From positions 62,001 to 126,000 of the forward strand of contig JAFROK010000034.1 in NCBI GenBank assembly GCA_017429695.1: a DNA stretch of 64,000 bases, written 5' to 3'. Of the stretch, positions 32,440 through 48,064 are shown in pieces. The position numbers and the translations under genes are program-made. The notes below the pieces were generated by a model. The model did no database searches. It had not been told where the DNA came from and worked only from the letters and a program-made list of their open reading frames with translations. This DNA is from Clostridia bacterium (GTDB lineage: Bacteria > Bacillota > Clostridia > Christensenellales > Aristaeellaceae). How positions within the stretch are numbered: position 1 is the stretch's first letter; every line of letters begins with the position of its first letter.

Positions 32440-33630
32440 TTATTTATCGGCGGTTACGATTTTCCGGATCCGTTCCGCGGCAATCTTCGTTGCCTCCGGG
32501 TCGCCGAAGGATGACAGGCGGAAGAATCCTTCGCCGCAGGAGCCGAAGCCTTCGCCCGGCGTTCCGATAACCTGTACCTTATTCAGCAGCAGGTCGAAGA
32601 AATCCCAGCTCTTCATGCCGTCCGGGCATGCCATCCAGATATACGGCGCATTCTTCCCGCCCCAGTAGCGGATGCCCGCCGCGTCCAGCGCCTTCATGAT
32701 GACCCGGGCGTTTTCCTTGTAAACCATAATATTCTCCTGGAGCTGTTCCAGGCCTTCGTCCGTGAACACGGCAATGCCGGCCTTCTGGAGGATATAGGAA
32801 ATGCCGTTCGTCTTCGTGGTCCGGTTCCGGATCCACATGGCATTCAGGTTCATCCCGTCCCGCTCCAGTTCCTTGGGAATCACGGTATATCCCAGCCGTG
32901 TACCGGTAAAGCCGGCTGTCTTGGACAGGGAACAGATTTCGATAGCGCAGGTCCGGGCGCTGGGAATCTCAAAAATGCTGTGGGGATAATCACCCTCGAT
33001 AAACGCTTCGTATGCAGCGTCAAAGAGAATGACCGCCCCGCGCCTGTTGGCAAAATCCACCCACTGCTGCAACTGTTCCCGGTTGTATACCGCGCCGGTG
33101 GGATTGTTCGGGGAACACAGGTAAATCAGGTCCGCTTCCGTATCTTCCCCGGGGAGCGGCAGGAAGTCGTTATCCGGCCCTGCATTCAGGAAGTTCACCT
33201 TCCGCCCCGCGATAATGCTGGCATCCACATAGGCCGGATAGGCCGGCTGGGTTACCAGCGCCGGAGACGAAGCGTCAAACAGGTCCAGGATATCGCCCAG
33301 CTCATCGCTGGCGCCGCTGGAAACGAAAACCTCGTCCGGATCCAGGGTCACATTCCTGCGGGCATAGTATCCCGCCACCGCTTTGCGGAATTCCGGAATA
33401 CCGCATTCCGGCGTATAGCCCCGGAATGTGGCGCCGTCCGCCTGGTCGTTCACCGCTTCATGCAGTGTTTTGATCACCACGTCGCACAGCGGCCGGGAGA
33501 CATCCCCGATGCCCAGCCGGTATACCGGCATATCCGGATGCTCTGCCTGGTAAGCCGCCACCTTCTTCGAAATCCCGAAAAACAGATAGGAGTCCTTTAG
33601 GTTTCCGTAATTCCCATTCGGCTTTAACAT
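32440..33630 (-). CDS. dapL: LL-diaminopimelate aminotransferase
   Basis: This PLP enzyme converts tetrahydrodipicolinate directly to LL-diaminopimelate for lysine and peptidoglycan synthesis. The PLP lysine is in [15 protein letters not shown], and [17 protein letters not shown] is the family cofactor motif. The N terminus ([20 protein letters not shown]) is typical of DapL. The 396-residue length fits. It sits between glmS and pyrG with short gaps, linking precursors of the cell wall (glucosamine and diaminopimelate). Confidence 0.93.
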
Positions 33631-33648: not shown

Positions 33649-35517
33649 TTATTCCACCGTCACGCTCTTGGCCAGGTTTCGCGGCTTATCCACGTCCAGT
33701 CCGCGGTTCACGCTGGTGTAGTATCCCAGCAGCTGCAGCGGCACGATCGCCAGTGACGCCATGAAATGTTCATCCGTTTTGGGAATGTAGACCGTGAAGT
33801 TCACCGAATCCTCAACGGAGAAATTCCCGTTGGTCGTAATGCCCATCAGGTAGGCACCGCGGGACTTGCATTCCATCATATTGGAAACGGTCTTCTCATA
33901 CAGCGCCTGCTGGGTCAGCACGCCGATCACCAGGGTGTTGTTCTCAATCAGGCTGATCGTTCCGTGCTTCAGTTCGCCGGCGGCATAGGCCTCCGAATGG
34001 ATGTAGCTGATCTCCTTCATCTTCAGACTGCCTTCCAGGCTGATCGCATAGTCCAGCCCGCGGCCGATGAAGAAAATGTCGTGGGTGTTGGCAATCTTGG
34101 AGGAAAACCACTGCAGCCTTTCCTTCTCATCCAGGATCCTTTTGATCTTGTCCGGAATCAGGGCAAGTTCCGCCAGCAGTTCCGCGGTCCGCTCCGGTGT
34201 AATGGCTTCCCGCACCCGGGCCATATGGATGGCCAGTACATCCGCAGCCGCCAGCTGGGCGCTGTACGCCTTGGTGGTGGCCACGGCAATTTCCGGGCCG
34301 GCCAGCGTATACAGCACATGGTCCGCTTCCCGGGCAATCGTGGAACCGATGACGTTGACGATCGCCAGCGTCATGGCGCCGCGCTCCTTGGCCACCCGCA
34401 GGGCCGCCAGGCTGTCCGCCGTTTCCCCGGACTGGGAAATGATGATCACCAGGGTGTTCCCGTTCATCGGAATGTTCCGGTAACGGAATTCAGACGCCAG
34501 CTCCACCCGGACCGGGATTCCCGCCAGGTCCTCAATCACATACTGGGCGGCCATGCCCACATGCCATGCGGAGCCGCAAGCAGCGATGTCGACCTGCTCA
34601 ATGGAGCGTATCATGTCATCCGTCAGGCCGGTCTGGCTCAGGTCAATCGTTCCATCCTTGACTACGCTGTTCAGCGTATCCCGGACCGCAACCGGCTGCT
34701 CATGGATCTCCTTGAGCATGAAGTGTTCAAAGCCGCCTTTTTCCGCCGCTTCGGCGTCCCATGTGATCTCCGTCAGTGGCATGTTCACTTCGTCGCCGTT
34801 CAGGTCGTAGAATACGACTTTCCCGGGGGATACCCGGGCTACCTGCAGGTTGTCGATATAGTATACCTGCCGGGTATACTTCAGGATGGCCGGAACGTCG
34901 GACGCCAGGTAGGAATCCTCGCCTTCCGTGCCGATGATCAGGGGAGAATCCTTGCGGGCTGCAAAAATCTCATCCGGATAATCCTTGAACATCAGGGCCA
35001 GGGCATAGCTGCCCCGGATCCGCACCATGGTCCGGGTAATCGCGTCCACCGGACCGATCTTGTATTTCTTGTAATAGTAATCCACCAGCTTTACGGCCAC
35101 TTCCGTATCTGTATCGCTGTAGAAGGAATAGCCGTGGCGCAGGAGCTTGTCCTTCAGCTCCGTGAAGTTCTCAATGATGCCGTTATGGACGCCCACCACA
35201 TCAGATTCCACGACGCCGCTGCCGGAACCCCGGCAGTTGCCGCTGACGTGCGGATGTGCATTCACCAGGCTGGGATCCCCGTGGGTAGCCCAGCGGGTAT
35301 GGCCGATGCCGCAGCATCCCGCCAGAGCCCGGCCCTGGTCCGTCTTATCCGCCAGGTGATGCAGCTTTCCGGTGGCCTTCACGACCTCAGCCAGCGCCGT
35401 TCCATTCCGAACGGCCAGGCCGGCGGAATCATATCCCCGGTATTCCAGCCTGGAAAGGCTGTCCAGCAGGATCGGCGCCGCCTGAACATGTCCCGTATAT
35501 CCAACGATTCCGCACAT
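33649..35517 (-). CDS. glmS: Glutamine--fructose-6-phosphate aminotransferase (isomerizing)
   Basis: GlmS makes glucosamine-6-phosphate from fructose-6-phosphate and glutamine, the first step to UDP-GlcNAc. The mature N terminus begins with the catalytic Cys in MCGIVGYTG, so the start is ATG 35517 with GGAGG 8 bases before it, not 35568. The glutaminase domain spans residues 1-240 and two SIS domains follow (VDIAACGSAWHVGMAAQYV; SQSGETADSLAALR; FFIGRGLDYAISLEGSLK). It ends in the usual KPRNLAKSVTVE. The leader is only about 70 bases and has no room for a glmS ribozyme. Instead it holds an intrinsic terminator. Confidence 0.97.
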   Translation of the reverse strand: MCGIVGYTGHVQAAPILLDSLSRLEYRGYDSAGLAVRNGTALAEVVKATGKLHHLADKTDQGRALAGCCGIGHTRWATHGDPSLVNAHPHVSGNCRGSGSGVVESDVVGVHNGIIENFTELKDKLLRHGYSFYSDTDTEVAVKLVDYYYKKYKIGPVDAITRTMVRIRGSYALALMFKDYPDEIFAARKDSPLIIGTEGEDSYLASDVPAILKYTRQVYYIDNLQVARVSPGKVVFYDLNGDEVNMPLTEITWDAEAAEKGGFEHFMLKEIHEQPVAVRDTLNSVVKDGTIDLSQTGLTDDMIRSIEQVDIAACGSAWHVGMAAQYVIEDLAGIPVRVELASEFRYRNIPMNGNTLVIIISQSGETADSLAALRVAKERGAMTLAIVNVIGSTIAREADHVLYTLAGPEIAVATTKAYSAQLAAADVLAIHMARVREAITPERTAELLAELALIPDKIKRILDEKERLQWFSSKIANTHDIFFIGRGLDYAISLEGSLKMKEISYIHSEAYAAGELKHGTISLIENNTLVIGVLTQQALYEKTVSNMMECKSRGAYLMGITTNGNFSVEDSVNFTVYIPKTDEHFMASLAIVPLQLLGYYTSVNRGLDVDKPRNLAKSVTVE

Positions 35518-35540: not shown

Positions 35541-35583
35541 AAAAAAACGGGTAAAGGGGGTCTTTCACAAGACCCCCTTGCCC
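35541..35583 (-). terminator. Leader terminator (attenuator) in front of glmS
   Basis: On the minus strand AAGGGGGTCTT and AAGACCCCCTT pair around GTGA, extended by GGG/CCC, and are followed by GTTTTTTT. It lies between the predicted promoter and the glmS start. Its 5' arm contains GCAAGGGGGTC (35581-35571), the version here of the motif shared with the glnA, asnB and amt leaders. It could also end amt transcripts, whose stop is 75 bases upstream. Confidence 0.8.
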
Positions 35584-35595
35584 TGTTCGGGGAGG

Positions 35596-35625
35596 ATCAT
35601 ATCATACTTGATTGCCCGTTGTCAA
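35596..35625 (-). promoter_or_regulatory. Promoter of glmS
   Basis: TTGACA at 35625-35620 and TATGAT at 35601-35596 on the minus strand, spacer 18. Predicted transcripts start near 35588. Confidence 0.65.
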
Positions 35626-35641
35626 TAATACATTATAATAC

Positions 35642-35662
35642 ATTAATACAAGTTGTATTAAT
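35642..35662. promoter_or_regulatory. 21-bp perfect palindrome, candidate operator between amt and glmS
   Basis: Arms ATTAATACAA and TTGTATTAAT flank a single G. The palindrome overlaps the amt stop codon and lies 17 bases upstream of the glmS -35 box. It is followed by two 10-bp near-repeats AATACATTAT/AATACATTAA. Symmetry and position suggest a dimeric repressor or activator site; the protein is unknown. Confidence 0.5.
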
Positions 35663-37373
35663 CATCTCCCTGCAGTGCGTCATACCCCGTCTCGCCGGTC
35701 CGGACACGAACCACGTCCTCCACGTCGTGGACGAAGATCTTGCCGTCGCCGATATGGCCGGTATACAGCACCTTCCGGGCTGTTTCGATGACCTTGGCCA
35801 CCGGCACCTTGCTGACCACGATATCCACCTGGACCTTCGGCAGCAGCGTCACTTCAACCGGCGTGCCGCGGTAATACTCAGGCTTGCCCTTCTGCATGCC
35901 GTAGCCCATGACGTTGGTCACGGTCATGCCCGTGATGCCGATGCCGTTCATGGCGGTCTTCAGGCTCTCCAGGCTGGCCGGACGGCAGACGATCTGCACG
36001 CGGGTGTAGACCGGTTCATCAGGCGCCTTTTCAGCCTTCTTAGCAGTTGTAACCGGTCCGATAACTGCCGCAGCGCCTTCCGCCACGGGCGGCACTTCAC
36101 CGGTCAGAGTGAATACGCCTTCCTCAGGCAGGATGGAGAATCCGGCATAAGCAGTGGTCAGGCCGTGCTCGCTGCGGTCGAGGCCCATGACCTCATCTTC
36201 TGCGTCAGCCCGCAGGCCGATGGTCTTTTTGATCACAAAGAACACAATGGTGATCACCACAGCTGTCCATGCAATCGTTGCGCCGACGCCCAGCGCCTGC
36301 ACGCCCAGGAAATGGAATCCGCCGCCGTAGAAAACGCCCTTCTCCGTGCTCACGCCCGTGGCGAACAGTCCTGTCAGGAGCGTTCCCATCGCACCGCATA
36401 CTCCGTGAACGGAGATCGCACCGACCGGGTCATCGATTTTGACCACATTGTCAAAGAAGCTGACCGACAGCACCACCAGGATGCCGCATACCAGGCCGAT
36501 GATTGCCGCACCGAAGGGGTTAACCGCGTCACACCCGGCTGTAATGCCGACCAGACCGGCCAGCGCCGCGTTGAAGGTCATGGATACATCCGGCTTGCCG
36601 TAACGGGCCCAGGTAAAGATCATGCAAGCCAGGGTTGCCACTGCCGCCGCCAGGTTGGTGTTAAAGAACACCAGGCTGGCGGATTCGATCGCTTCATCGC
36701 TGTCCATCGCCACGGTGGACGCACCATTGAAACCGAACCAGCAGAACCAGAGGATAAACACGCCGAGCGCGGCGATCGACAGGTTATGGCCCAGGATCGC
36801 CCGGGGCTTTCCGTCCTTGCCGTACTTGCCGATGCGCGGCCCCAGCATCTTCGCGCCAATCAGGGCGCAGACGCCGCCGACCATATGCACCGCGGTGGAA
36901 CCGGCAAAATCATGGAATCCCATTTCAGCCGCCCAGCCGCCGCCCCAGATCCAGTGGCCGCTGACCGGATAGATAAACAATGAAATCGCCGCGGAGTAGA
37001 TGCAGTAAGCAGAGAACTTTGTGCGCTCCGCCATGGCACCGGAAACGATCGTCGCGGAAGTCGCACAGAAGACGGTCTGGAAAATCGCGAAGGCCCACAG
37101 CGGTACGCCGTCCGGCAGGACCGCACCGTATTCCTTCATGATGAAGGGATCGATCCAGCCAAACAGGGCCGTACCCGATCCGAACATGATGCCAAATCCG
37201 ATCAGCCAGTAGATCGGGGTACCGATACAGAAGTCCATCAGGTTCTTCATCAGGATATTACCGGTATTCTTGGCCCGGGTAAAACCGGCTTCACACATCG
37301 CGAAGCCTGCCTGCATGAAGAAGACCAGCGCCGCGCCTATGAGGACCCAGATTGTGTTTGCTGCAGAGAACAT
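35658..37373 (-). CDS. amt: Ammonium transporter fused to a C-terminal P-II regulatory domain
   Basis: Residues about 5-405 are an Amt channel: MCEAGFTRAKNTGNILMKNL, the GHWIWGGGWAAEMGFHDFAG region and the conserved pore-His segment AISVHGVCGAMGTLL. After a linker of about 50 residues rich in Ala, Pro and Glu, residues from about 450 to 571 form a complete P-II protein. This starts with YTRVQIVCRPASLESLKTAM, has the T-loop tyrosines in GKPEYYRGTPVEV and ends with the signature GKIFVHDVEDVVRVRTGE. P-II normally is a separate trimer that plugs Amt when nitrogen is plentiful; here channel and plug are joined. The gene has its own promoter and leader terminator at 37415-37497. Confidence 0.95.
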   Translation of the reverse strand: MFSAANTIWVLIGAALVFFMQAGFAMCEAGFTRAKNTGNILMKNLMDFCIGTPIYWLIGFGIMFGSGTALFGWIDPFIMKEYGAVLPDGVPLWAFAIFQTVFCATSATIVSGAMAERTKFSAYCIYSAAISLFIYPVSGHWIWGGGWAAEMGFHDFAGSTAVHMVGGVCALIGAKMLGPRIGKYGKDGKPRAILGHNLSIAALGVFILWFCWFGFNGASTVAMDSDEAIESASLVFFNTNLAAAVATLACMIFTWARYGKPDVSMTFNAALAGLVGITAGCDAVNPFGAAIIGLVCGILVVLSVSFFDNVVKIDDPVGAISVHGVCGAMGTLLTGLFATGVSTEKGVFYGGGFHFLGVQALGVGATIAWTAVVITIVFFVIKKTIGLRADAEDEVMGLDRSEHGLTTAYAGFSILPEEGVFTLTGEVPPVAEGAAAVIGPVTTAKKAEKAPDEPVYTRVQIVCRPASLESLKTAMNGIGITGMTVTNVMGYGMQKGKPEYYRGTPVEVTLLPKVQVDIVVSKVPVAKVIETARKVLYTGHIGDGKIFVHDVEDVVRVRTGETGYDALQGDD

Positions 37374-37414
37374 TCAACTCACTCTCCTTTTCTCTGTGCG
37401 TCTGCACAGGTATC

Positions 37415-37454
37415 AAAAAAGGCGCCGGGGTGCTTCTGCACACCCTTGCGCCTT
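37415..37454 (-). terminator. Leader terminator (attenuator) in front of amt
   Basis: On the minus strand AAGGCGC pairs with GCGCCTT and an inner GGGTG-TGC/GCA-CCCC stem closes on AGAA; TTTTTT follows. The 5' arm includes GCAAGGGTGTG (37449-37439), the shared leader motif. It lies 15 bases from the predicted -10 box and about 40 bases before the start codon. Confidence 0.8.
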
Positions 37455-37468
37455 GCTTGATTGCGTGT

Positions 37469-37497
37469 ATTGTATACAGGATCCAATCGTCTGTCAA
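37469..37497 (-). promoter_or_regulatory. Promoter of amt
   Basis: TTGACA at 37497-37492 and TACAAT at 37474-37469, spacer exactly 17. Confidence 0.8.
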
Positions 37498-37543
37498 GCG
37501 GAAAACAACCGAAGAACATTGGTTTTTTCACGCATCTTTTTTC

Positions 37544-38263
37544 TCAGCCGCCGATCTGCTTTTCCAGCCGTCCCATAATCTCCCGGTAGGCGTCCTCAAC
37601 GCCGCCCATATCCCGCCGGAAACGGTCCTTGTCGAGCTTTTCATGGGTCTTGCTGTCCCACAGGCGGCAGGTATCCGGGCTGATTTCATCCGCCAGGACG
37701 ATGGTTCCGTCTGACAGGCGGCCGAACTCCAGCTTGAAGTCCACCAGCGTCACGCCGCAGGAAAGCCAGAATTCCTTCAGTGCTTCATTGATCCGGAAAG
37801 AAAGGTCCTTGATGGTTTCAATTTCTTCTTTGGTCGCCAGTTTCAGCGCCAGGGCGTGGTATTCGTTCAGCAGCGGATCGCCGAGTTCGTCGTTCTTATA
37901 GGAAAACTCAATCGTCGGCGCGTCAAAAACAATGCCTTCCTCCACGCCGTAATGCTTCGCAAAGGATCCCGCTGAGATATTCCGGATAATCACTTCCAGC
38001 GGTACAATCTGCACGCGCTTGACCAGTGTATCCCGTTCGCTGAGTTCCTTCACAAAGTGGGTCGGAATTCCCTTCTTCGCCAGCATCTGCATCAGGGCAT
38101 TGCTCATCCGGTTGTTGATGACGCCTTTGCCTTCAATGGTGCCCTTTTTCAGGCCGTTGAATGCCGTTGCATCGTCCTTGTAGGACACGATCAGCAGCTC
38201 CGGATTCTCCGTCTCGAATACTTTCTTGGCCTTGCCTTCGTACAGCTGAACTCCCTTGTTCAT
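37544..38263 (-). CDS. purC: Phosphoribosylaminoimidazole-succinocarboxamide (SAICAR) synthase
   Basis: PurC joins CAIR and aspartate in purine synthesis. Family motifs are LYEGKAKKVFETENPELL at the N terminus, VPLEVIIRNISAGSFAKHYG and VLADEISPDTCRLWDSKTHE. The start is ATG 38263, with GGAGGG 8 bases ahead; upstream codons to 38497 belong to the 3' part of gltD in another frame. Length 239 residues is normal. It begins 16 bases after gltD, so it is the last gene of the glnA-nitR-gltB-gltD-purC transcript. Confidence 0.97.
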   Translation of the reverse strand: MNKGVQLYEGKAKKVFETENPELLIVSYKDDATAFNGLKKGTIEGKGVINNRMSNALMQMLAKKGIPTHFVKELSERDTLVKRVQIVPLEVIIRNISAGSFAKHYGVEEGIVFDAPTIEFSYKNDELGDPLLNEYHALALKLATKEEIETIKDLSFRINEALKEFWLSCGVTLVDFKLEFGRLSDGTIVLADEISPDTCRLWDSKTHEKLDKDRFRRDMGGVEDAYREIMGRLEKQIGG

Positions 38264-38279
38264 TGAAACCACCCTCCTG

Positions 38280-39683
38280 TTATTTCCTGAGATACCGGTC
38301 GGTTTCCCGTGCCGCCGCCCGGCCGTCCGCCAGGGCACGAACCACCAGGGACTGTCCGGTGCGCATATCGCCGGCGCTGAACAGCTTTCCGCCCAGGTAA
38401 TGGCTCTGGTCTTCCGGCAGCAGCCGTCCCCTGGAATCCGCAGAAAGTGAGAACGCTTCCCGCGTTTTCTCATCGCAGCCGACAAAGCCGGCTGCAATCA
38501 GCATCAGGTCGCATGGCAGGGTCTGTTCCGAGCCTTCCACCGGCGCCATCTTCCCATCCGGGGTTCTGTGCAGCTTCACGGTTTCCGCGGCGGTCATCTG
38601 ACCACCGGCGTCTATTATAACCCGTTTTACCGTTGTTTCATAGACCCTTGGATCATTTCCCTGTACTTCTGCTGCTTCCATTTGCCCGTAATCCGTCCGG
38701 AGGGTTCTCGGCCATTCCGGCCAGGGATTGCCCGGTGTCCGGAATTCCGGCGGAGCAGGCATCATTTCCAGCTGCGTCACCGATGCGCAGCCCTGCCGCA
38801 GCACCGTACCCACACAGTCGTTCCCCGTATCGCCGCCACCGATCACCAGCACATGCTTTCCGCAGGCCAGCCGGTTATCCTCCCCGGCCAGCAGGCGTTT
38901 CGTGGTTTCCGTCAGGAAATCCACCGCAAAATACACGCCTTTTGCATCCGCGTTTTCCACATTCAGCGACCGGGGCTTCCGCGCACCGCCGCACAGCACC
39001 ACGGCATCCGCATTCCCCAGTTTTTCCGGATCTGCATCCGTGTTCAACCGGAAAGCGACGCCTTCCGCCTCCATCAGGTGGATCCGCCGCTCCACGATGC
39101 CCTTGGGCAGCTTCATGTTCGGAATCCCGTAGGTCAGCAGCCCGCCGGCCCTGTCTGCCCGTTCATATACCGTCACCTGATGCCCCAGCCGGTTCAGCAG
39201 GTCCGCTGCCGCCAGTCCGGAAGGTCCGCTGCCGACCACGGCCACATGCTTTCCGGTCCGGGTTTTCGGCGTTCGCGGGCGAACCCAGCCCTGTTCAAAT
39301 CCTTTTTCGATCAGATACAGCTCGTTGTCCCGGTTGGTCACGCCGCCTTCTTCCGACAGGTTGCATGCCTTTTCGCACAGCGCGGGGCAAACCCGCCCGG
39401 TGAATTCCGGGAAAGGTGCTGTTTCCAGCAGGCGCTCCAGCGCCTCCTGTTCCTGTCCCCGGCAAAGCAGGTCGTTCCATTCCGGAATCAGATTGTGCAG
39501 CGGGCATCCGAAGCCGGACTGGCAGAAGGGCACACCGCAGTTCATGCAGCGGGAGGCCTGGCAGAAGCGTTCTTCCGCCGGCTGCGCAACATGCAGGTCC
39601 TCATAGTCCGAAAGGCGTTCCTTCACATCCCGGAACGGATTTTCCTTCCGGCTGTATTCCATAAATCCAGTTGCCGTACCCAT
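38280..39683 (-). CDS. gltD: Glutamate synthase small subunit
   Basis: GltD passes electrons from NAD(P)H through FAD to the iron-sulfur clusters of GltB. The N-terminal domain has the cysteines CMNCGVPFCQSGFGC and VCPALCEKAC. FAD and NAD(P) nucleotide folds are VVGSGPSGLAAADLLNRLG and VLVIGGGDTGNDCVG. At 467 residues it is of usual length. It starts 55 bases after gltB, and the gap contains degenerate CAGGTCTCAGGTTTCAGG repeats. Confidence 0.95.
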   Translation of the reverse strand: MGTATGFMEYSRKENPFRDVKERLSDYEDLHVAQPAEERFCQASRCMNCGVPFCQSGFGCPLHNLIPEWNDLLCRGQEQEALERLLETAPFPEFTGRVCPALCEKACNLSEEGGVTNRDNELYLIEKGFEQGWVRPRTPKTRTGKHVAVVGSGPSGLAAADLLNRLGHQVTVYERADRAGGLLTYGIPNMKLPKGIVERRIHLMEAEGVAFRLNTDADPEKLGNADAVVLCGGARKPRSLNVENADAKGVYFAVDFLTETTKRLLAGEDNRLACGKHVLVIGGGDTGNDCVGTVLRQGCASVTQLEMMPAPPEFRTPGNPWPEWPRTLRTDYGQMEAAEVQGNDPRVYETTVKRVIIDAGGQMTAAETVKLHRTPDGKMAPVEGSEQTLPCDLMLIAAGFVGCDEKTREAFSLSADSRGRLLPEDQSHYLGGKLFSAGDMRTGQSLVVRALADGRAAARETDRYLRK

Positions 39684-39738
39684 GATATTCCCCCCTACCA
39701 GGTCTCAGGTTTCAGGAGAACCTATCTTTTCTGATGCC

Positions 39739-42700
39739 TTATGCCTGGCACCTGATACAAGTTTTCTGCAGGAAAGCCTGATACTCATCCGATATGACCG
39801 TTTTGAATGCCGGCAGGTAATCCTCAAAGTGGGCCAGAATCTCCGCCGCCTTTTTCGATCCGGTTGTCTTCTCATGCATGCTCAGCAGCCGCTGCAGCTC
39901 ATCCGCTTCATTCCCGCGTACCGGATACGCCTTCACATGGCCGGGATTCAGTTTCCCTTCCAGCGTGCCGTCTTCATCCAGCACCCAGGCGATACCGCCG
40001 CTCATGCCGGCGGCAAAGTTGTCGCCCACCGGTCCCAGTACGGCCACCCGTCCGCCGGTCATGTATTCACATCCGTGGTCACCCACGCCTTCCGTGACCG
40101 CCCATGCGCCGGAATTGCGCACCGCAAAGCGTTCGCCGGTTTTGCCTGCCACAAAAGCGTATCCGCTTGTCGCCCCGTACAGGGCCACGTTGCCGATCAG
40201 GGTATCCTCCGGCCGCCAGATACTGTCTGCCGGCGGGCATACCGCGATGGTACCGCCGGACAGGCCTTTGCCCAGGTAATCGTTGGCCACACCGAAGAGT
40301 GTAATCGCCTGGCCCTTGGGCAGGAACGCCCCGAAGGACTGGCCGCCGCAGCCCAGTGCCTGGATATTCCGTTCGCCTTTCAGCATCGTGCCGAAAGCCC
40401 GGTCTGTTGTCATCAGCTGCACATGGTCCTGGAACAGCCGCGCGTCCGTCCGCTCCTGCAGATGGAAATCATGCTTCGCTTCCGGCCGGAAATGCGTGTT
40501 TCGTGCGAAACCGGTCAGGTCGGACAGATCCATCGCGGTGTTTTCCTTCATCTTCAGCAGGTCGCTCCGGCCGACCAGCTCCGCTACCGTCCGGGCGCCC
40601 AGCTTCGCCATGATCTCCCGCAGCTGTTCCGCAATGAACAGCATGAACCGTTCCACATACTCCGGCTTCCCGGCAAATCTTTTCCGCAGATCCGGATTCT
40701 GTGTCGCAATGCCGAAGGGGCAGGTGCCCAGATGGCATACCCGCATCATCCGGCAGCCCATGGTCACCAGCGGCGCCGTGGCAAAGCCGAACTCCTCCGC
40801 GCCCAGCAGCAGTGCCACTGCCACATCATGGCCGCTCATCAGCTTGCCGTCTGTTTCCAGCGTCACCGTCTGCCGCAGCCGGTTCCTGCACAGCACCTGG
40901 TGGGCTTCCGCCAGGCCGATCTCCCATGGCAGGCCCGCATGATGCACGCTGCTGAGCGGCACCGCGCCGGTCCCGCCTTCCCCGCCGGAAATCAGGATCC
41001 CGCCTGCGCCGGCTTTGGCCACGCCGCTGGCAATCGTCCCGACACCGCTGGAGGACACCAGTTTCACGGTAATCTTAGCCTGCTCGTTGGCACACTGCAG
41101 GTCGTAAATCAGTTCCGCCAGGTCTTCAATCGAATAGATATCATGGTGCGGCGGCGGGGAAATCAGGGAAATCCCCGGCGTGGAGCAGCGGGTGCGCGCC
41201 ACGCTCTCCGTCACCTTGGCGCCGGGCAGGTGTCCGCCCTCGCCGGGCTTGGCGCCCTGCGCCATCTTGATCTGTATTTCTTTGGCAGAAAGCAGGTATT
41301 CCCGGGTTACGCCGAAGCGTCCGGAGGCCACCTGTTTGATGGCAGAGTTCAGCTCGGTGCCGAAGCGTTCAGGCAGTTCTCCGCCTTCGCCGCTGTTGGA
41401 CTTCCCGCCCAGGCGGTTCATCGCCTTGGCCAGGCATTCATGGGCTTCCTGGGAAATGGAGCCATAGCTCATTGCGCCGGTACGGAAACGATGCACAATG
41501 CTTTCCGCCGGTTCCACATCGGAAAGCGGAATCTCCCGGCAGGCTTCATACCGGAAGGTCAGCATAGACCGGATTGTCCGCGGCCCTTCGTTTTCCACCC
41601 TTGCGGCATACCGGTCAAACAGCGCTTTGTCATCCGTCCATACCGCCTGCTGCAGCATATGGATTGTCTCCGGAGAATACAGGTGCTCCTCCGCGCCTTC
41701 CCCGCTGCGCAGGCGATGAATGCCGACGCTGGGCAGGCCTTTCTGCTCCGGTTCCTCAAAGGCGGCCCCATGGTGGAAAATCAGGTCCGTCTCCACCCTG
41801 TTCAGGTCCGCTCCGCCGAGAACACAGGGCGTATTCGTAAAGTATGTATCGACAAACCGGTCGTCTAGTCCGACAGTTTCAAACAGCTGCGCGCTCTGGT
41901 ATGCCTGCAGCGTGGAAACGCCCATCTTCGAGGCAATTTTCAGCACACCGGCGGTCAGTGCCTTGTTGTAGTTCTCCAGTGCCTCCGCTTCCGGCAGCTG
42001 AATTTGTCCCTTCGCGCACAGATCCCGTACGCATTCATGGGCCAGGTACGGATTCACTGCCCGCGCACCGAAAGCGATCAGCAGGGCCAGCTGATGCACA
42101 TCCCGCGGCTCGCCGCTTTCCAGGATGACCGAGACCGCCGTCCGCTTTTTGATGTGAATCAGGTGCTGTTCCAGGGCGGATACCGCCAGCAGGGACGGAA
42201 TCGCCAGATGCGCTTCATCCACGCCGCGGTCCGACAGGATCAGCACGTTGATATGATCCCGGCATGCCTGGTCGCACGCCGCAAAGAAAGTATCCACCGC
42301 ATCCCGCAGGCTGTTTCCCTTTTCATACCGCAGGGGAACCGTCCGTACGGAAAACGCCGGATGCTGCAGTTCCCGGATCCGCCGGAGCTCATCCTCGGTC
42401 AGCACCGGGGAAGGCAATTCCAGCACCGTGCAGTTTTCCGGATCATGGCTCAGCAGGTTGCCGTCATCGCCGATATAGATGGAGCAGTCCGTCTTGACTT
42501 CCTCCCGCAGGGCGTCAATCGGCGGATTCGTCACCTGGGCAAAGCGCTGCCGGAAATAGTCAAACAGCGGCGGATGGGCCTTGGACAGCGCCGCGATCGG
42601 TTCATCCGCGCCCATGGAAACAATAGGCTCCGTGCCGTTCACCGCCATCGGCCGCAGGATATCCTGAATATCCTCCTGGGTATAACCAAATGCCTTGCAA

Positions 42701-44100
42701 AGTGGAACGTGGGGGACGGTTCCTTTTGTTTCACTTTTTGGAACGTCAGGAACCGTCCCCTGCGTTCCATTTTCGGGCAGGTCTTCCAGCCGGATGGCCT
42801 GTTTCATCCATTCCGTATACGGATACGCCTGTGCGTAACGGGTTTTGACCTCCGTGCTTTCCATCAGCCGGCCGGTAGTCAGGTCCGCCTCCAGCACATC
42901 GCCGCCGTGCAGTTTCCACCGGCGAACGATATGCGCATTCTCCTCAAACAGCACCCCGGCTTCGGAAGAAAGGATCAACCGGTGGTCATCCGTCAGCGCG
43001 CACCGCAGCGGGCGCAATCCGTTCCGGTCCAGGGAAGCGCAGACCCTGTCGCCATCCGAATACAGCACGGCAGCCGGCCCGTCCCATGGTTCCATCATGG
43101 TCGCATAATACCGATACAGGTCGCGCCACGGCGTCTTTTTCCGTGATTTCTGCCAGGGTTCCGGCAGCAGGATCATGCCCGCCAGCGAAAGCGGAAATCC
43201 GTTCATCGTCAGGAACTCCAGCGTGTTATCCAGCATCTGGCTGTCGCTTCCGCTTTCCGCCACCACCGGAAGCACGCGCCGCATCTCATCGCCCATGACC
43301 GCGGAGGACATCGTCTCCTCCCGGGCCTTCATCCGGTCATGGTTGCCGCGGATTGTATTGATCTCGCCGTTGTGCAGCAGCATCCGGTGCGGATGCGCCT
43401 TGCTCCAGCTCGGGAAGGTGTTTGTCGAGAAGCGGGAGTGTACCATCGCCATGCAGCTGGTATACCGCGCGTCCTGCAGGTCGTCATAAAAAGACCGCAG
43501 CTGGCTGACCAGCATCATGCCCTTATAGACAATCGTCCGGCAGGACAGCGAACAGACATAGGTATCCGTATCCTGTTTTTCAAAGATCCGGCGCAGCACA
43601 TACAGCCGCCGATCAAAATCCAGCCCGGCTGCCACGCCTTCCGGCCGCCGCAGAAAGCACTGGCGGATCCGCGGCATGGTACGCCGCGCGCCGGCACCCA
43701 GCTGCGCCGGATGGCAGGGCACATCCCGCCAGCCCAGCACGGCAATCCGTTCCGATGATGCCAGCTGCTCAAAAATGTGGCATGTGTTGTCCGTGCCGAC
43801 TTCATCTTCCGGCATAAAGAACATCCCCACGCCATAATCTCCGGGCTGTCCCAGAGAGATTCCCTCTTCCCGGGCCCAGGCCGAAAACAGGCTGTGGGGC
43901 AGTTGGGTCAGAATCCCGACCCCGTCGCCGGTGGTTCCCAGGGCGTCGCTTCCGGCCCGGTGCGCCAGGCGCTCCACAATGCAGAGCGCCTGGTCTACCG
44001 TCCGGTGGGTGGCCCGACCGTTCAGGTCTGCCACCGCGCCTACGCCGCAGCTTTCATGCTCGAGTTCCTCATGATACAGAGGATATCGCTGATCCCTCAT
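39739..44100 (-). CDS. gltB: Glutamate synthase large subunit with a REP-derived insert
   Basis: GltB makes two glutamates from glutamine and 2-oxoglutarate. The class II glutaminase domain starts at the Cys in HESCGVGAVADLNG and runs to about residue 430. The central and FMN synthase domains follow, with the 3Fe-4S cysteines in MGCRMMRVCHLGTCPFGI near residue 1118 and MAQGAKPGEGGHLPG near 950. The C-terminal GXGXG beta-helix is seen in GGTIAVCPPADS and TGGRVAVLGPVGDNFAAGMS. Residues about 444-466 (GTVPDVPKSETKGTVPHVP) come from a palindromic repeat inserted in frame, in the linker after the glutaminase domain. Length 1,453 is slightly below most bacterial GltB. Start ATG follows GGAGAG. Confidence 0.95.
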   Translation of the reverse strand: MRDQRYPLYHEELEHESCGVGAVADLNGRATHRTVDQALCIVERLAHRAGSDALGTTGDGVGILTQLPHSLFSAWAREEGISLGQPGDYGVGMFFMPEDEVGTDNTCHIFEQLASSERIAVLGWRDVPCHPAQLGAGARRTMPRIRQCFLRRPEGVAAGLDFDRRLYVLRRIFEKQDTDTYVCSLSCRTIVYKGMMLVSQLRSFYDDLQDARYTSCMAMVHSRFSTNTFPSWSKAHPHRMLLHNGEINTIRGNHDRMKAREETMSSAVMGDEMRRVLPVVAESGSDSQMLDNTLEFLTMNGFPLSLAGMILLPEPWQKSRKKTPWRDLYRYYATMMEPWDGPAAVLYSDGDRVCASLDRNGLRPLRCALTDDHRLILSSEAGVLFEENAHIVRRWKLHGGDVLEADLTTGRLMESTEVKTRYAQAYPYTEWMKQAIRLEDLPENGTQGTVPDVPKSETKGTVPHVPLCKAFGYTQEDIQDILRPMAVNGTEPIVSMGADEPIAALSKAHPPLFDYFRQRFAQVTNPPIDALREEVKTDCSIYIGDDGNLLSHDPENCTVLELPSPVLTEDELRRIRELQHPAFSVRTVPLRYEKGNSLRDAVDTFFAACDQACRDHINVLILSDRGVDEAHLAIPSLLAVSALEQHLIHIKKRTAVSVILESGEPRDVHQLALLIAFGARAVNPYLAHECVRDLCAKGQIQLPEAEALENYNKALTAGVLKIASKMGVSTLQAYQSAQLFETVGLDDRFVDTYFTNTPCVLGGADLNRVETDLIFHHGAAFEEPEQKGLPSVGIHRLRSGEGAEEHLYSPETIHMLQQAVWTDDKALFDRYAARVENEGPRTIRSMLTFRYEACREIPLSDVEPAESIVHRFRTGAMSYGSISQEAHECLAKAMNRLGGKSNSGEGGELPERFGTELNSAIKQVASGRFGVTREYLLSAKEIQIKMAQGAKPGEGGHLPGAKVTESVARTRCSTPGISLISPPPHHDIYSIEDLAELIYDLQCANEQAKITVKLVSSSGVGTIASGVAKAGAGGILISGGEGGTGAVPLSSVHHAGLPWEIGLAEAHQVLCRNRLRQTVTLETDGKLMSGHDVAVALLLGAEEFGFATAPLVTMGCRMMRVCHLGTCPFGIATQNPDLRKRFAGKPEYVERFMLFIAEQLREIMAKLGARTVAELVGRSDLLKMKENTAMDLSDLTGFARNTHFRPEAKHDFHLQERTDARLFQDHVQLMTTDRAFGTMLKGERNIQALGCGGQSFGAFLPKGQAITLFGVANDYLGKGLSGGTIAVCPPADSIWRPEDTLIGNVALYGATSGYAFVAGKTGERFAVRNSGAWAVTEGVGDHGCEYMTGGRVAVLGPVGDNFAAGMSGGIAWVLDEDGTLEGKLNPGHVKAYPVRGNEADELQRLLSMHEKTTGSKKAAEILAHFEDYLPAFKTVISDEYQAFLQKTCIRCQA
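42703..42769. repeat. REP-like palindromic element inside gltB
   Basis: TGGAACGTGGGGGACGGTTC plus CT and its near-perfect inverse ending in CTGCGTTCCA form 22-bp arms with two mismatches around a 23-base spacer containing TTTGTTTCACTTTTT. The GGGGACGGTTCC type of palindrome is, from memory, common in intergenic regions of Clostridia and Bacilli. Here it is translated. Confidence 0.75.
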
Positions 44101-44151
44101 TGGTCATTCTCTCCTCTGAGTGGTCAGTGATCAGCAATCATAATCCACTGT
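44101..44151. repeat. Intergenic decayed short repeats between nitR and gltB
   Basis: The 51-base gap contains TGGTCAGTGATCAGCAATCA, CCACTGTTCACTTTCCACTA and the edge of CACTAATCACT. These are degenerate units of the same kind as in several other gaps of the window. The only functional site seen is the gltB ribosome site GGAGAG. Confidence 0.4.
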
Positions 44152-44673
44152 TCACTTTCCACTAATCACTTTCTTGGCGTATTCCGTCATCTTAATGCCA
44201 TGGTTCATGGCCTGTTTCTGCAGCAGATGGTGAGCCTCCGGCTCGGATATCTGCATCTGTTTCATTAATATCGCCTTTGCCTGTTCCACGATTTCCTTGT
44301 CGGTCCCGCTTCTCCGGGGCATCTGTCTGTAATGCAGCTGATTCAGCATTTCCAGTGCACCGAGAATCGTCTGACCCGAGGTCGGAACAGGAAGGCGGAA
44401 CACTTCCGGAGCATCGCAGTCCGCCAGGATGGACGGCTTTGCGATCCACAGGATCTGTACCCGGTCTCCGTAATCCCAGATCAGTTCATCAGGTTTGCAG
44501 TCCGGAAAAGCACCCATGATAATGAGGATGCTGTCTTCACTCTCTGTCAGTGCTCTCCGCAGGCTGCTTTCTGACGCGCAGCAGCGGTATACGGTATAAC
44601 CGGAGGAGGCCAGCAGCCGGGACATTTGGTCGCGGTTCGTATCCGACACGCTGGCGATAATCATTCGCGCCAC
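44152..44673 (-). CDS. nitR: ANTAR-domain RNA-binding regulator with a degenerate receiver, NitR-like
   Basis: Residues about 120-170 form an ANTAR domain (KEIVEQAKAILMKQMQISEP, then AHHLLQKQAMNHGIKMTEYA), a three-helix fold that binds leader RNA and prevents termination. The first about 110 residues look like a receiver fold, but where the phosphorylated Asp is expected the sequence reads SILIIMGAFPD, so it is probably not phosphorylated there. A GTG start is used, with AAGGGGGAAGG ahead; ATG 44664 is an alternative. The order glnA-ANTAR-gltB-gltD matches the glnA-nitR-gltAB cluster I recall from Clostridium saccharobutylicum, hence the symbol. Targets are likely leaders of nitrogen genes. 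Confidence 0.82.
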   Translation of the reverse strand: MARMIIASVSDTNRDQMSRLLASSGYTVYRCCASESSLRRALTESEDSILIIMGAFPDCKPDELIWDYGDRVQILWIAKPSILADCDAPEVFRLPVPTSGQTILGALEMLNQLHYRQMPRRSGTDKEIVEQAKAILMKQMQISEPEAHHLLQKQAMNHGIKMTEYAKKVISGK

Positions 44674-44802
44674 TCAGCCTTCCCCCTTTTTTAGTTATCA
44701 GTTATTAGCCGTCAGTCACCGGAATGGTCTGGATTCCGTCAACTGGCATCTGAAAACTGATATGAAAATCTGATAACTGAAAGCCGATCACTGACAGAAG
44801 CA
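44674..44802. repeat. Gap between glnA and nitR with decayed CAGTTATCAG repeats
   Basis: The 129-base gap contains TTAGTTATCAGTTATTAG near its left end and CTGATAACTGAAAG near its right end, inverted relative to each other, with CTGAAAACTGATAT between. No promoter or terminator with a clear T-run was found, so read-through from glnA to nitR is likely. Confidence 0.4.
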
Positions 44803-46134
44803 TCAGTACATGACGATATACCGGTCAATTTCCCACTGGCTGACGTGCGTGCGATAAGCATCCCATTCTTTCTCTTTGCCTTCCACATACTGGGTCAGCA
44901 CATGCTCGCCCAGCGTGTCGCAGATCACCGGGTCCGCCTTCAGGCATTCCACCGCTTCCTTCAGGTTGCCGGGCAGGGATTTGATGCCCTTGGCTTCCCG
45001 GGTGGCGGCATCCATGGCAAAGATGTTTTCCGTAATTTCGTCCGGCGGGGTCATGCCCTTTTCAATGCCATCCAGGCCGGCCGCCAGGCACACCGCCAGG
45101 TTCAGGTAGGGGTTGCAGCTCGGATCGGGGCAACGCAGCTCAACCCGGGTGCCGCTGCCGCGTGCAGCAGGAATGCGGATCAGGGCGCTGCGGTTGCTGG
45201 CGCTCCAGGCCAGGTAGCAGGGGGCTTCATAGCCCGGCACCAGGCGCTTGTAGCTGTTGACCAGCGGGTTTGAAATCGCCGCCATGCCCCGGATATGGGT
45301 CAGGATACCTGCGATGAAGGAATAGGCTTCCTTGCTCAGGCCGCGCTTGTCGGAAGGATCGGCAAATACGTTCTTTCCGTCCTTGAAGAGGCTCATGTTG
45401 GTGTGCATGCCGCTGCCGTTGATGCCGAATACCGGCTTGGGCATAAAGGTCGCATGCAGGCCGTTCTTCTGGGCCAGCGTTTTCACCGCCAGTTTGAACG
45501 TCATGATATTGTCGGCGGAGCTCAGCGCATCCGCATACCGGAAGTCGATCTCATGCTGGCCGGCTGCCACTTCATGGTGGCTGGCTTCAATTTCAAAGCC
45601 CATCTGTTCCAGTGCCATGCAGATCTCACGCCGGGTGCTTTCGCCGTGATCCAGCGGTCCCAGGTCGAAATAGCCGGCTTCATCGGACGTTGCGGTGGTC
45701 GGCCGTCCCTGTTCATCCGTCTGGAAAAGGAAGAACTCGCACTCCGGTCCCACATTGAAGGAGTATCCCATGTCCGCCGCACGCTTCAGCACTTTCTTCA
45801 GCACACCGCGGGGATCTCCGGCAAAGGGGGTGCCGTCCGGATTGTACACATCGCAGATCAGCCGGGCAACTTTCCCGTGCTGCGGGCGCCAGGGCAGAAT
45901 CGTAAAGGTGTCCAGATCGGGATGCAGGTACTGGTCGCTTTCATTGATCCGGACAAAGCCTTCAATGCTGCTGCCGTCGATCATGATTTCATTATTGACG
46001 GCTTTCTCAATCTGGCTGGCCGTAATGGCCACATTCTTCAGCTGACCGAAAATATCGGTAAACTGCATCCGGATAAACTCCACGTCACCTTCCCGAACCA
46101 GGCGGATAATGTCCTCTTTCGTGTACTTGCTCAT
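44803..46134 (-). CDS. glnA: Glutamine synthetase, type I
   Basis: GlnA joins ammonia to glutamate using ATP. The 443-residue length, lack of a C-terminal adenylylation loop insertion, and motifs [63 protein letters not shown] and [13 protein letters not shown] fit the GSI-alpha form of Firmicutes. It is the first gene of the glnA-nitR-gltB-gltD-purC run, and has a consensus promoter and a leader terminator. The start ATG 46134 follows GAGGAGGGAAGAACG. Activity in such bacteria is usually controlled by feedback and not by adenylylation. Confidence 0.97.
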
Positions 46135-46156
46135 CGTTCTTCCCTCCTCAGTCGAT

Positions 46157-46198
46157 AAAAAGAAAACAAGGTGCGCCGCTCAACCACGACACCCTTGT
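46157..46198 (-). terminator. Leader terminator (attenuator) in front of glnA
   Basis: On the minus strand ACAAGG and CCTTGT, extended by TG/CA and CG/CG pairs, form a hairpin followed by TTTTCTTTTT. It starts 12 bases after the -10 box and contains ACAAGGGTGTC (46198-46188). No gene is transcribed towards glnA from upstream, so this hairpin can only act on the glnA transcript itself. Confidence 0.8.
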
Positions 46199-46210
46199 CC
46201 TGATGCGCGA

Positions 46211-46239
46211 ATCTTATCACCCGTCCGGAGCCCTGTCAA
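46211..46239 (-). promoter_or_regulatory. Promoter of the glnA operon
   Basis: TTGACA at 46239-46234 and TAAGAT at 46216-46211 with a 17-base spacer. The 349-bp gap 46135-46483 between glnA and asnB holds this promoter, the divergent asnB promoter, both leader hairpins and a leader peptide. Confidence 0.85.
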
Positions 46240-46292
46240 GCACCCCGATTGTATTCCCTTTGTTTTCGCCGCATCATCCCCTGGAAGCATCC

Positions 46293-46321
46293 TTGACAAC
46301 CGCTTTTCAGAATGATACCAT
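46293..46321 (+). promoter_or_regulatory. Promoter of asnB-guaA
   Basis: TTGACA at 46293-46298 and TACCAT at 46316-46321 with a 17-base spacer, divergent from the glnA promoter. Confidence 0.78.
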
Positions 46322-46331
46322 ACCCGACATC

Positions 46332-46369
46332 AAGGCAAGGGTGTCCTGGAAAGGATCCCTTGCCTTTTT
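46332..46369 (+). terminator. Leader terminator (attenuator) in front of asnB
   Basis: AAGGCAAGGG and CCCTTGCCTT are perfect 10-bp arms with an inner TCC/GGA stem, followed by TTTTT. The 5' arm holds GCAAGGGTGTC starting 13 bases after the -10 box. The hairpin is flanked by direct copies of GACATCAAGG and GACATCAAAGG. Confidence 0.82.
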
Positions 46370-46390
46370 GACATCAAAGGAGATGATCGC

Positions 46391-46441
46391 ATGCTGACGT
46401 ACTCCGTCTGCTTTATGAACCGAAAGCCCGGAACAATTTAA
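46391..46441 (+). CDS. Possible 16-residue leader peptide upstream of asnB
   Basis: ATG at 46391 is preceded by AAAGGAG at 8 bases, and the frame reads MLTYSVCFMNRKPGTI before TAA. It lies after the leader terminator and 42 bases ahead of the asnB start. The peptide is not rich in one amino acid such as Asn or Gln, so classical ribosome-stalling attenuation is not obvious. It is too short for statistical support. The ribosome site is the main evidence. Confidence 0.4.
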   Translation: MLTYSVCFMNRKPGTI

Positions 46442-46483: not shown

Positions 46484-48064
46484 ATGTGTTCAATCTTTGG
46501 CCTGACCAGCAGCCGGGTACCCCGTGATCTGATCGAAACCTGTTTCAACCGTACCATCTCCCGCGGTCCGGATATGAGCCGCCTCGTGGATATTCCCGGC
46601 GGCGTCCTCGGTTTCCACCGCCTGGCCATCATGGGCCTGCATGAAGAAGGCATGCAGCCTTTCCAACTGGATGACGATTATGTGATCTGCAACGGCGAGC
46701 TTTACGGGTTCCGCCCGCTCCGCGAACGCCTGATGCAGACCTATGAAATAAAGAGCGGATCGGACTGCGAAATCCTGCTTCCGCTCTACCGGGAATACGG
46801 CGTTGAAATGTTCAAAACCCTGGACGCCGAATTTGCCCTGATCCTTTATGACGGAAAGCAGGGCAAAATGATCGCCGCCCGCGATCCCATTGGCATCCGC
46901 CCGCTCTATTACGGCCGCCTGGCAGACGGCGAATGGGCCTTTGCCAGCGAGCCGAAAAACCTGATAGGCCTGTGTAAAATCATCATGCCCTTCCCGCCCG
47001 GACATTACTGGATGGACGGGGAGTTTGTGCAGTACGCGGATCCCGCGTATGTGGGATATTTCTCCATGAAAACAGAAGAGGAAGTATGTCCCAAGCTTCG
47101 CCGCCTGCTGATGGACGGCGTGGAAAAACGGCTGGACGCGGACGCGCCGGTCGGTTTCCTGCTCTCCGGCGGCCTGGATTCCTCCCTCGTCTGCGCCATT
47201 GCCCAGAAGATGCTCCCCCACCCGATCCGCACCTTCGCCATCGGCATGGATATCGACGCCATTGACCTGAAGTATGCCCGGATGGTTGCCGATTATATCG
47301 GTTCAGAGCATACGGAAGTCATTATCAGCGAAAAGGACGTGCTCGATGCGCTTCCGACGGTGGTTGAACTGCTCGGCACCTGGGATATCACCACCATTCG
47401 CGCATCCATCGGCATGTACCTGGTCTGCAAATGGATTCATGAAAACACGGATGTCCGGGTACTGCTCACCGGCGAAATTTCCGATGAGCTTTTCGGCTAT
47501 AAATACACAGACTTTGCCCCCTCTGCCGCCGCCTTCCAGGAGGAAGCGGAGAAGCGCATCCGGGAACTGCATATGTACGACGTGCTCCGGGCGGACCGGT
47601 GCATCTCCGTCAACTCCCTGGAAGCCCGCGTTCCCTTTGGCGACCTGAAATTCGTCCGGTATGCCATGAGCATTGACCCGGAGCTGAAAATGAACCGTCA
47701 CAACATGGGCAAATACCTGATCCGCAAAGCCTTTGCCGATGACCACATCTTGCCGGATGAAATCCTGTGGCGCCAGAAGGCAGCTTTTTCCGACGCCGTC
47801 GGCCATTCCATGGTCAACGACCTGAAAGCGCTTGCGGAAAGAACATATACGGACAAGGAATTTGAGCGCCTGGCAGCGAAATACGATTACTGCCGTCCCT
47901 TTACGAAGGAGAGCCTCCTTTACCGGGAGCTCTTCGAGCAGTATTATCCCGGCCAGGCATACATGATCCCCGGCTTCTGGATGCCGAACAAAACCTGGCC
48001 CGGCTGCAACGTCGACGATCCTTCCGCGAGGGTTCTGGCGAACTACGGCGCCAGCGGTCAGTAA
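46484..48064 (+). CDS. asnB: Asparagine synthase (glutamine-hydrolysing)
   Basis: AsnB makes asparagine from aspartate, glutamine and ATP. The catalytic Cys is residue 2 (MCSIFGLTSS), so the start is ATG 46484 with GAAGGAGG 8 bases ahead, not the in-frame ATG at 46454. The glutaminase half has ISRGPDMSRLVDIPGG, GFHRLAIMGL and ICNGELYGFRPLR; the synthetase half has the pyrophosphatase loop LLSGGLDSSLVCAIAQK near residue 225 and TGEISDELFGYKY. Length 526 residues is normal. It begins an operon with guaA 49 bases downstream. Confidence 0.95.
   Translation: MCSIFGLTSSRVPRDLIETCFNRTISRGPDMSRLVDIPGGVLGFHRLAIMGLHEEGMQPFQLDDDYVICNGELYGFRPLRERLMQTYEIKSGSDCEILLPLYREYGVEMFKTLDAEFALILYDGKQGKMIAARDPIGIRPLYYGRLADGEWAFASEPKNLIGLCKIIMPFPPGHYWMDGEFVQYADPAYVGYFSMKTEEEVCPKLRRLLMDGVEKRLDADAPVGFLLSGGLDSSLVCAIAQKMLPHPIRTFAIGMDIDAIDLKYARMVADYIGSEHTEVIISEKDVLDALPTVVELLGTWDITTIRASIGMYLVCKWIHENTDVRVLLTGEISDELFGYKYTDFAPSAAAFQEEAEKRIRELHMYDVLRADRCISVNSLEARVPFGDLKFVRYAMSIDPELKMNRHNMGKYLIRKAFADDHILPDEILWRQKAAFSDAVGHSMVNDLKALAERTYTDKEFERLAAKYDYCRPFTKESLLYRELFEQYYPGQAYMIPGFWMPNKTWPGCNVDDPSARVLANYGASGQ

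Follow-up and report, generated by a model that had tools for sequence, protein, structure and literature searches.

The window analysed here is a stretch of 64,000 nucleotides (nt) from a Clostridia contig; all coordinates are positions within it, with the strand given as + or -. It carries glnA, asnB, a gene for an ammonium transporter fused to a PII domain (amt-PII) and glmS, each preceded by a promoter and a short leader, and a gene for an ANTAR protein that sits between glnA and gltB (Table 1). The subject of this work is the four leaders and their putative control by that protein.

An earlier note on this DNA had described the leaders as sharing a promoter-proximal motif that forms an intrinsic terminator. 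The TTGACA promoters are confirmed in all four cases (spacers of 17, 17, 17 and 18 nt for glnA, asnB, amt-PII and glmS), and folding confirmed a hairpin and a T-run before each start codon, with the motif in the 5' part. The motif, CAAGGG(T/G)G, follows the promoter in each leader and is used by the terminator. Its reported position, 12-19 bases past the -10 box, is right for glnA, asnB and glmS (14, 15 and 16 nt to AAGGG(T/G)) but not for amt-PII (21 nt). Its assignment to the 5' arm of the terminator stands overall, except for amt-PII, whose leader places the motif's two As in an internal loop of the terminator. The glnA and asnB genes are divergent, with 53 base pairs (bp) separating their -35 boxes. 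Measured against dinucleotide shuffles, the fold z-scores of the leaders are -2.09 (glnA), -4.01 (asnB), -5.33 (amt-PII) and -3.62 (glmS).

Table 1. Genes and predicted leader elements in the window.
Feature	Position	Strand	Basis
glnA promoter, TTGACA-17-TAAGAT	46211..46239	-	sequence
glnA P2-like antiterminator hairpin (predicted), hexaloop AAGGGT at 46191-46196	46183..46204	-	fold
glnA leader terminator hairpin and T-run, overlapping the hexaloop	46157..46199	-	fold prediction
glnA, glutamine synthetase	44803..46134	-	Gln-synt_N, Gln-synt_C
ANTAR protein with degenerate receiver-like domain, NitR-like; proposed trans-acting antiterminator	44152..44673	-	domain, profile, fold
gltB, glutamate synthase large subunit, downstream of the ANTAR gene	39739..44100	-	
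gltD, glutamate synthase small subunit	38280..39683	-	
asnB promoter, TTGACA-17-TACCAT	46293..46321	+	sequence
asnB antiterminator hairpin (predicted), hexaloop AAGGGT at 46337-46342	46329..46350	+	fold
asnB leader terminator and T-run	46332..46369	+	fold prediction
asnB, glutamine-dependent asparagine synthetase	46484..48064	+	
amt-PII promoter, TTGACA-17-TACAAT	37469..37497	-	sequence
amt-PII antiterminator hairpin (predicted), four pairs only, hexaloop AAGGGT at 37442-37447	37434..37455	-	fold
amt-PII leader terminator and T-run	37415..37454	-	fold prediction
Ammonium transporter fused to PII domain	35658..37373	-	domain search
glmS promoter, TTGACA-18-TATGAT	35596..35625	-	sequence
glmS antiterminator hairpin (predicted), hexaloop AAGGGG at 35574-35579	35566..35587	-	fold
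glmS leader terminator and T-run	35541..35583	-	fold prediction
glmS, glutamine-fructose-6-phosphate transaminase	33649..35517	-	
dapL	32440..33630	-	after glmS, same strand
pyrG	30800..32401	-	after dapL, same strand

That first reading overlooked a small alternative hairpin, the ANTAR protein and the missing first hairpin (P1) of the published ANTAR model. In this second fold, the motif forms a hairpin with the hexaloop A-A-G-G-G-N and a C-G closing pair, below which come two pairs, often a mismatch, and then up to four or five further pairs. RNAs bound by ANTAR proteins are described as carrying a hexaloop whose first base is A and whose fourth is G, here A1/G4 (PMC3369931, PMC8934654). No named RNA family had been thought to fit the leaders, and Rfam indeed gave no match at gathering thresholds in the whole window and none at E<=1 in 46130-46400, which covers the glnA and asnB leaders; nevertheless, loop, stem and terminator overlap fit the second hairpin (P2) of ANTAR systems, and an ANTAR gene is present in the same gene cluster.

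The genome to which the window belongs (3.03 megabases in 60 contigs, 88% complete) contains eight places that match TTGACA-N32..52-CAAGGGNG and none that match the reversed pattern. The four further sites precede purF, gdhA and the genes of an AGCS amino-acid carrier and a PPDK_N-domain protein; nitrogen or glutamine genes lie downstream of six of the eight. Both by eye and by folding, all eight sites show a hairpin and T-run before the start codon, and all eight form the three inner pairs of the small hairpin around an A1/G4 hexaloop. The nearest terminator incorporates two or three of the hairpin's three inner 3'-arm bases along with two to six of the loop's six. Predicted energies favour this terminator in every case over the 22-base hairpin window (glnA, -13.0 versus -7.3 kcal/mol; gdhA, -15.4 versus -5.6 kcal/mol). 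In the gdhA and AGCS leaders the terminator holds two of the six loop bases and mainly the 3' side of the hairpin. As the terminator takes up the 3' arm or loop of the hairpin, the two folds are mutually exclusive. The purF and PPDK_N leaders have the loop just 10 nt past the -10 box, so that the hairpin would begin at the first bases of the RNA.

Two further features were seen next to these leaders. A repeat, AATACA...GGGAATACAAT (46240-46270, - strand), lies no more than about 30 nt upstream of the glnA -35 box and recurs at glnA promoters of relatives in several genera (e.g. L079, L082, L085 and L098); it could be an activator site or an UP element. Between the asnB terminator and asnB there is a short open frame (MLTYSVCFMNRKPGTI, 46391-46441, + strand), judged from its sequence a possible leader peptide, and genome G112 shows a similar-looking frame start (MPAYLACL).

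The product of the ANTAR gene matches the ANTAR domain PF03861 with 59.8 bits (cut-off 27.3; 2.2e-16). Among solved structures, a profile of 19 ANTAR proteins from the family identified EutV (7.9e-13) and also Rv1626, NasR and AmiR. By fold, the AlphaFold model (mean pLDDT 87.9, pTM 0.65), made up of a receiver-like domain, a long helix and three ANTAR helices, matches RNA-bound EutV best (1.2e-9), with a root-mean-square deviation of 12.5 over the whole chain, a large value that is expected from the different placement of the two domains. Profile alignment to 6wsh places Gly at the position of the EutV acceptor Asp, which makes phosphorylation there unlikely. RNA-contacting residues were read from a hidden Markov model alignment of 61 ANTAR proteins from regions of the family and 20 from other regions of the class. 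According to the EutV study, E160 and K149 contact G4 of the loop and Tyr164 stacks on it (PMC8934654). The equivalents of E160, K149 and M172 are kept in 61, 60 and 60 of the 61 family-region proteins, respectively.

A search of relatives with a covariance model had been named in the earlier note as a check. A plain motif pattern applied to 120 genomes of the family was too loose (114 of the 120 matched, and the reversed control often did too); it was replaced by a covariance model of promoter plus hairpin, R1, built from 32 sequences. At E<=0.01, R1 matched in 57 of 120 family, 46 of 200 order and 22 of 196 class genomes, samples that overlap, since the order set includes family genomes and every set includes the own genome; matches stand before nitrogen and glutamine genes of many Clostridia. 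We tested 134 of the 135 distinct family and order matches and 28 of the 32 class matches from other genomes than our own, 162 in total. In all, 134 of the 162 pass a filter for an A1/G4 hexaloop (a feature that the filter itself demands), three closing pairs, a terminator (lenient test) and a -10 box. This filter lets through at least two false-looking matches (G147, G193) and rejects real-looking sites, either where one of the three inner pairs is non-standard (G095, G053, G039) or where the loop starts with G (G061, G070). The loop is AAAGGC in 44 passing sites and AAGGGN in 69. Weak R1 matches lacking a terminator were often Shine-Dalgarno-like sites near a promoter and were set aside.

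The overlap of the two folds also holds among the passing sites. Two earlier terminator tests, one giving 107 of the 134 family and order matches with both features and the other more lenient, sometimes picked a later T-run, and a stricter test of the nearest T-run superseded them; the features scored in the first were loop and terminator. By the nearest-T-run test, 132 of the 134 passing sites retain a terminator, and 127 of those 132 terminators incorporate two or more of the three inner 3'-arm bases or four or more loop bases. The nearest T-run lies a median of 40 nt (25-73) from the presumed transcript start. Beyond the hairpin but no further than the terminator's end, 14 of the 134 passing sites contain a second hexaloop, compared with 5.7 in shuffles. 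By eye, some leaders, several of them before glutamine synthetase III (GSIII) genes, show a second hexaloop unit 60-80 nt after the first, like tandem attenuators (G485:C26:231396, G214:C10:6520, G109:C193:6962, G166:C34:12700, G348:C65:1209); such tandem units may explain part of the excess.

Comparison with proteins encoded in the window's genome gave a downstream-gene label to 80 of the 134 family and order matches: glnA for 54, asnB for seven, gltB for six, gdhA for five, glmS and amt-PII for two each, and gltD, purF, the PPDK_N gene and the ANTAR gene itself for one each. Seven of the 54 glnA labels rest on 26-33% identity and are probably GSIII or uncertain, and some gltB labels are loose. 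First residues and Pfam added GSIII, CTP synthase, a class-II amidotransferase-like protein and an aminotransferase (nine examples), and the class set contributed purC, amt and carA, the carA site being without a near terminator. By these sequence-based labels the gene set is one of ammonia assimilation and glutamine-using enzymes. The spacing of glmS, dapL and pyrG in the window suggests a single operon, and pyrG carries its own site in relatives such as G091. A scan of the own genome with R1 at E<=5 gave 25 matches, with six extra loci inspected, of which one was the amt leader, one lies before a purA-like gene and four were unconvincing. The purA-like locus (G000:C22:35076-35131) is a weak match (E 0.02) that carries CAAAGGCG and a nearby second copy; its inspection revealed no clear hexaloop stem. 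Almost all of the 58 named genomes among the relatives are gut or rumen metagenome assemblies (two Christensenella sp., one Candidatus Fimadaptatus), and the organism itself is an uncultured Clostridia bacterium, probably of gut or rumen.

The hairpin stem shows compensatory changes. Sixty regions around ANTAR genes were taken from genomes of the same family, and 35 of them include the start of a glnA whose identity to the window's is 70% or more. Thirty-three of these 35 leaders satisfy a simple rule (C-A-N-N-G-G-N-G within 135 nt of the start, TANNNT upstream), as does that of a more distant glnA, L083 (43%); the two exceptions are L105, with the loop GAAGGT, and L117, with the motif about 214 nt from the start. 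Alignment A1 comprises 42 leaders, 34 from beside ANTAR genes of the family and eight from the own genome, chosen on the loop, the closing C-G and the upstream promoter, the stem beyond the closing pair being unused. Standard pairs make up 81.3% in this alignment versus 70.0% in shuffled alignments and 30-42% with slid partners, and the covariation score is 0.413 versus 0.225, with none of 500 shuffles as high; kinship among the sequences can inflate these figures, and the slid control retains kinship. Five of the seven pairs have changes on both sides, a count reached by 183 of 500 shuffles. Beyond the family, passing sites are 78.1% paired versus 61.8% when shuffled (none of 200 shuffles as high), although the stem was part of the model that located them.

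Sites and ANTAR genes also tend to occur in the same genomes. Within the order but outside the family, an ANTAR gene is present in 30 of the 32 genomes that hold a passing site, versus 61 of the 155 that hold none (p=4e-9; overall background 91 of 187); in the class outside the order, the figures are 17 of 18 versus 80 of 169 (p=7e-5). Within the family they are 46 of 49 versus 23 of 71 (p=2e-12), an association that is partly circular because most of the training leaders of R1 came from beside ANTAR genes. The distance from a site to an ANTAR gene is in many cases no more than a few kilobases.

The published model of ANTAR antitermination has two hexaloop hairpins, P1 and P2, with a linker whose length matters (PMC3369931). 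A later structural study reports that an EutV dimer holds one hexaloop at a time and redefines the minimal site as one; it considers single-hexaloop sites possible (EutX, some Mycobacterium tuberculosis RNAs) and in need of more work (Walshe 2022, PMC8934654). Among the passing sites, which were found with a promoter-containing model, the distance from the -10 box to the loop is 10-20 nt, with a median of 15, and is 14-16 nt in 103 of 134. A promoter-free scan for hexaloop plus terminator at 104 loci was too noisy to be used (48 places, of which 26 had a promoter, compared with 14 and 4 after block shuffling); 20 of its 26 promoter-bearing places have the same 14-16 nt. If transcription starts at least six bases after the -10 box, 2-12 nt of presumed transcript precede the inner stem, which is too little for a second hairpin and a linker, and given the predicted -10 boxes a hexaloop was found there in none of the 134 passing sites. 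On the evidence of these predicted boxes, the leaders match P2 only and a classical P1 is absent.

One rival to our proposal is that these are dual-hairpin ANTAR leaders whose P1 was missed, the real start lying further upstream. P1 is reported to be obligatory for eutP in Enterococcus faecalis (PMC3369931), and dual leaders do exist in the class. As a control we took 20 regions from the rest of the class, chosen by top ANTAR scores, of which 15 contain glnA. Hexaloop pairs stand before glnA in L381 and L384, the only two judged dual by eye; a pair inside the glnA coding sequence of L376 was taken as chance. Five glnA leaders have one hexaloop 22-27 nt from the -10 box (L378, L379, L380, L386, L389), five have one at about 50 nt or more, where a P1 could be hidden (L371, L372, L374, L377, L382), and three were hard to assign to any of these groups by eye (L376, L383, L390). 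Against a missed P1 stand the almost constant spacing between the promoter boxes (-35 and -10) and the loop, the short presumed transcript free of hexaloops, and the 53 bp that the divergence of glnA and asnB leaves between their -35 boxes. We consider this explanation unlikely.

Taken together, the leaders probably constitute a NitR-like ANTAR antitermination regulon in a single-hexaloop, promoter-proximal form. RNA polymerase would start a few nucleotides before the base of the hairpin or at it; the loop of this hairpin, A-A-(G/A)-G-G-N, is closed by a C-G pair. Without the ANTAR protein, the terminator would draw in the hairpin's 3' side together with some or all of the loop and would halt transcription about 40 nt from the presumed start. 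Under nitrogen or glutamine shortage, the ANTAR protein from the glnA-gltB cluster, which has no acceptor Asp, would bind the hexaloop and hold the small hairpin, and the polymerase would pass into the gene. An increase in read-through under nitrogen shortage would be expected from the role of the regulated genes in nitrogen assimilation. We infer the transcript start, ANTAR binding, the direction of the nitrogen response and the signal alike; for the last, our guess is PII, glutamine synthetase or a metabolite, and the Amt-PII fusion protein possibly links ammonium sensing to the ANTAR protein.

Several observations weigh against this regulon. The published finding that P1 deletion impairs eutP induction in E. 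faecalis (PMC3369931) is one. In the protein, the position of EutV Tyr164 is His in 58 of the 61 family-region ANTAR proteins (it is Tyr or Phe in 20 of 20 from other class regions), and the R175 position is mostly Gly. ANTAR genes are present in 61 genomes of the order outside the family and 80 of the rest of the class that have no passing site. Conversely, seven of the 134 passing sites belong to genomes that lack an ANTAR match; among these genomes, G109 (68%) and G073 (77%) are incomplete and the sites of G147 and G193 are likely false, whereas G017 (97% complete, loop AACGGC) and G348 (97%, 6% contaminated, with two plausible sites) stand as exceptions. Plausible glnA sites that fail the filter were also seen in G039 (83% complete) and G061 (87%), both without an ANTAR match.

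The sites in these genomes, two of them 97% complete, and the lost acceptor Asp speak for a second rival, in which the terminator switch is real but responds to a different factor or to a small molecule, for example glutamine, the ANTAR genes merely co-occurring. The hairpin is very small for a ligand-binding RNA and has no Rfam match, and neither the A1/G4 loop rule nor the many sites a few kilobases from an ANTAR gene would be accounted for; we therefore regard this as improbable too. Much less credible is a DNA operator downstream of the promoter, bound by a nitrogen repressor: the near-fixed promoter distance and conserved sequence would suit it, but the compensatory stem changes, the terminator overlap, the ANTAR loop rule and the association with ANTAR genes speak for an RNA element. 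Terminators with similar arms are common, but ordinary unregulated attenuators or dispersed repeats under no common control can practically be dismissed in view of the inner pairs at all eight own-genome sites, the nitrogen or glutamine genes after six of them, the empty reversed control, the covariation and the conservation across orders.

As a prediction, the common premature-termination switch for ammonia uptake, glutamine synthesis and glutamine use that the earlier note had advanced is thus well supported by conservation over families and orders, by covariation and by a coherent gene set. The ANTAR regulon would couple glutamine supply (glnA, amt, gltB, gdhA) to the amidotransferases that consume it (asnB, glmS, purF, pyrG). 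It seems likely that in many Clostridia a nitrogen and glutamine regulon works on a single hexaloop at the 5' end, with no recruitment hairpin, and that the two-hairpin rule does not extend to the whole mechanism. The published work leaves a puzzle, in that an ANTAR dimer binds one hexaloop at a time and yet P1 deletion impairs induction. The leaders described here are strong natural candidates for single-hexaloop sites, numerous and with built-in replicates. Because a two-hairpin scan, as in Ramesh 2012, is not expected to find them, the published lists may understate how far nitrogen genes of gut and rumen Clostridia are under ANTAR control.

The Sac/Bgl RAT antiterminators are unrelated to the ANTAR system in both protein and RNA. 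They are similar to our leaders in that a single protein-stabilised hairpin excludes the terminator (PMC3369931). With the dual-hairpin ANTAR systems EutV/eutP, NasR/nasF and AmiR/amiE, as these are presented by Ramesh 2012 and Walshe 2022, the leaders share an A1/G4 hexaloop with at least three closing pairs, a hairpin that overlaps an intrinsic terminator, an ANTAR protein and nitrogen genes. They differ from dual-hairpin systems in having one hexaloop, in the position of the hairpin at the presumed 5' end of the transcript, and in a C-G closing pair and A2/G5 that are nearly fixed in the model-found sites; unlike a phosphorylated response regulator of the EutV type, the window's ANTAR protein has Gly at the acceptor position. 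The nearest described system is NitR of Clostridium saccharobutylicum (Stutz 2007), placed beside the window's protein here by its description in a review, according to which this ANTAR protein induces glutamine synthetase and glutamate synthase (GS/GOGAT) genes by antitermination under nitrogen limitation (PMC6316151). Single hexaloops have been proposed as ANTAR sites by Walshe 2022 as well, in the EutX RNA of E. faecalis and in some M. tuberculosis RNAs; those candidates are a protein-sequestering RNA and stem-loops at ribosome binding sites or in 5' untranslated regions (PMC8934654), whereas here the loop overlaps a promoter-proximal terminator and serves a whole regulon. Among the matches listed in searches of the open literature, there was no report of single-hexaloop ANTAR leaders of nitrogen genes. 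Thus, a single terminator-excluding hairpin, ANTAR control of nitrogen genes and the hexaloop are already known, and what appears to be new, as predicted from sequence, is a promoter-proximal one-hexaloop ANTAR leader that would serve a whole regulon across Clostridia.

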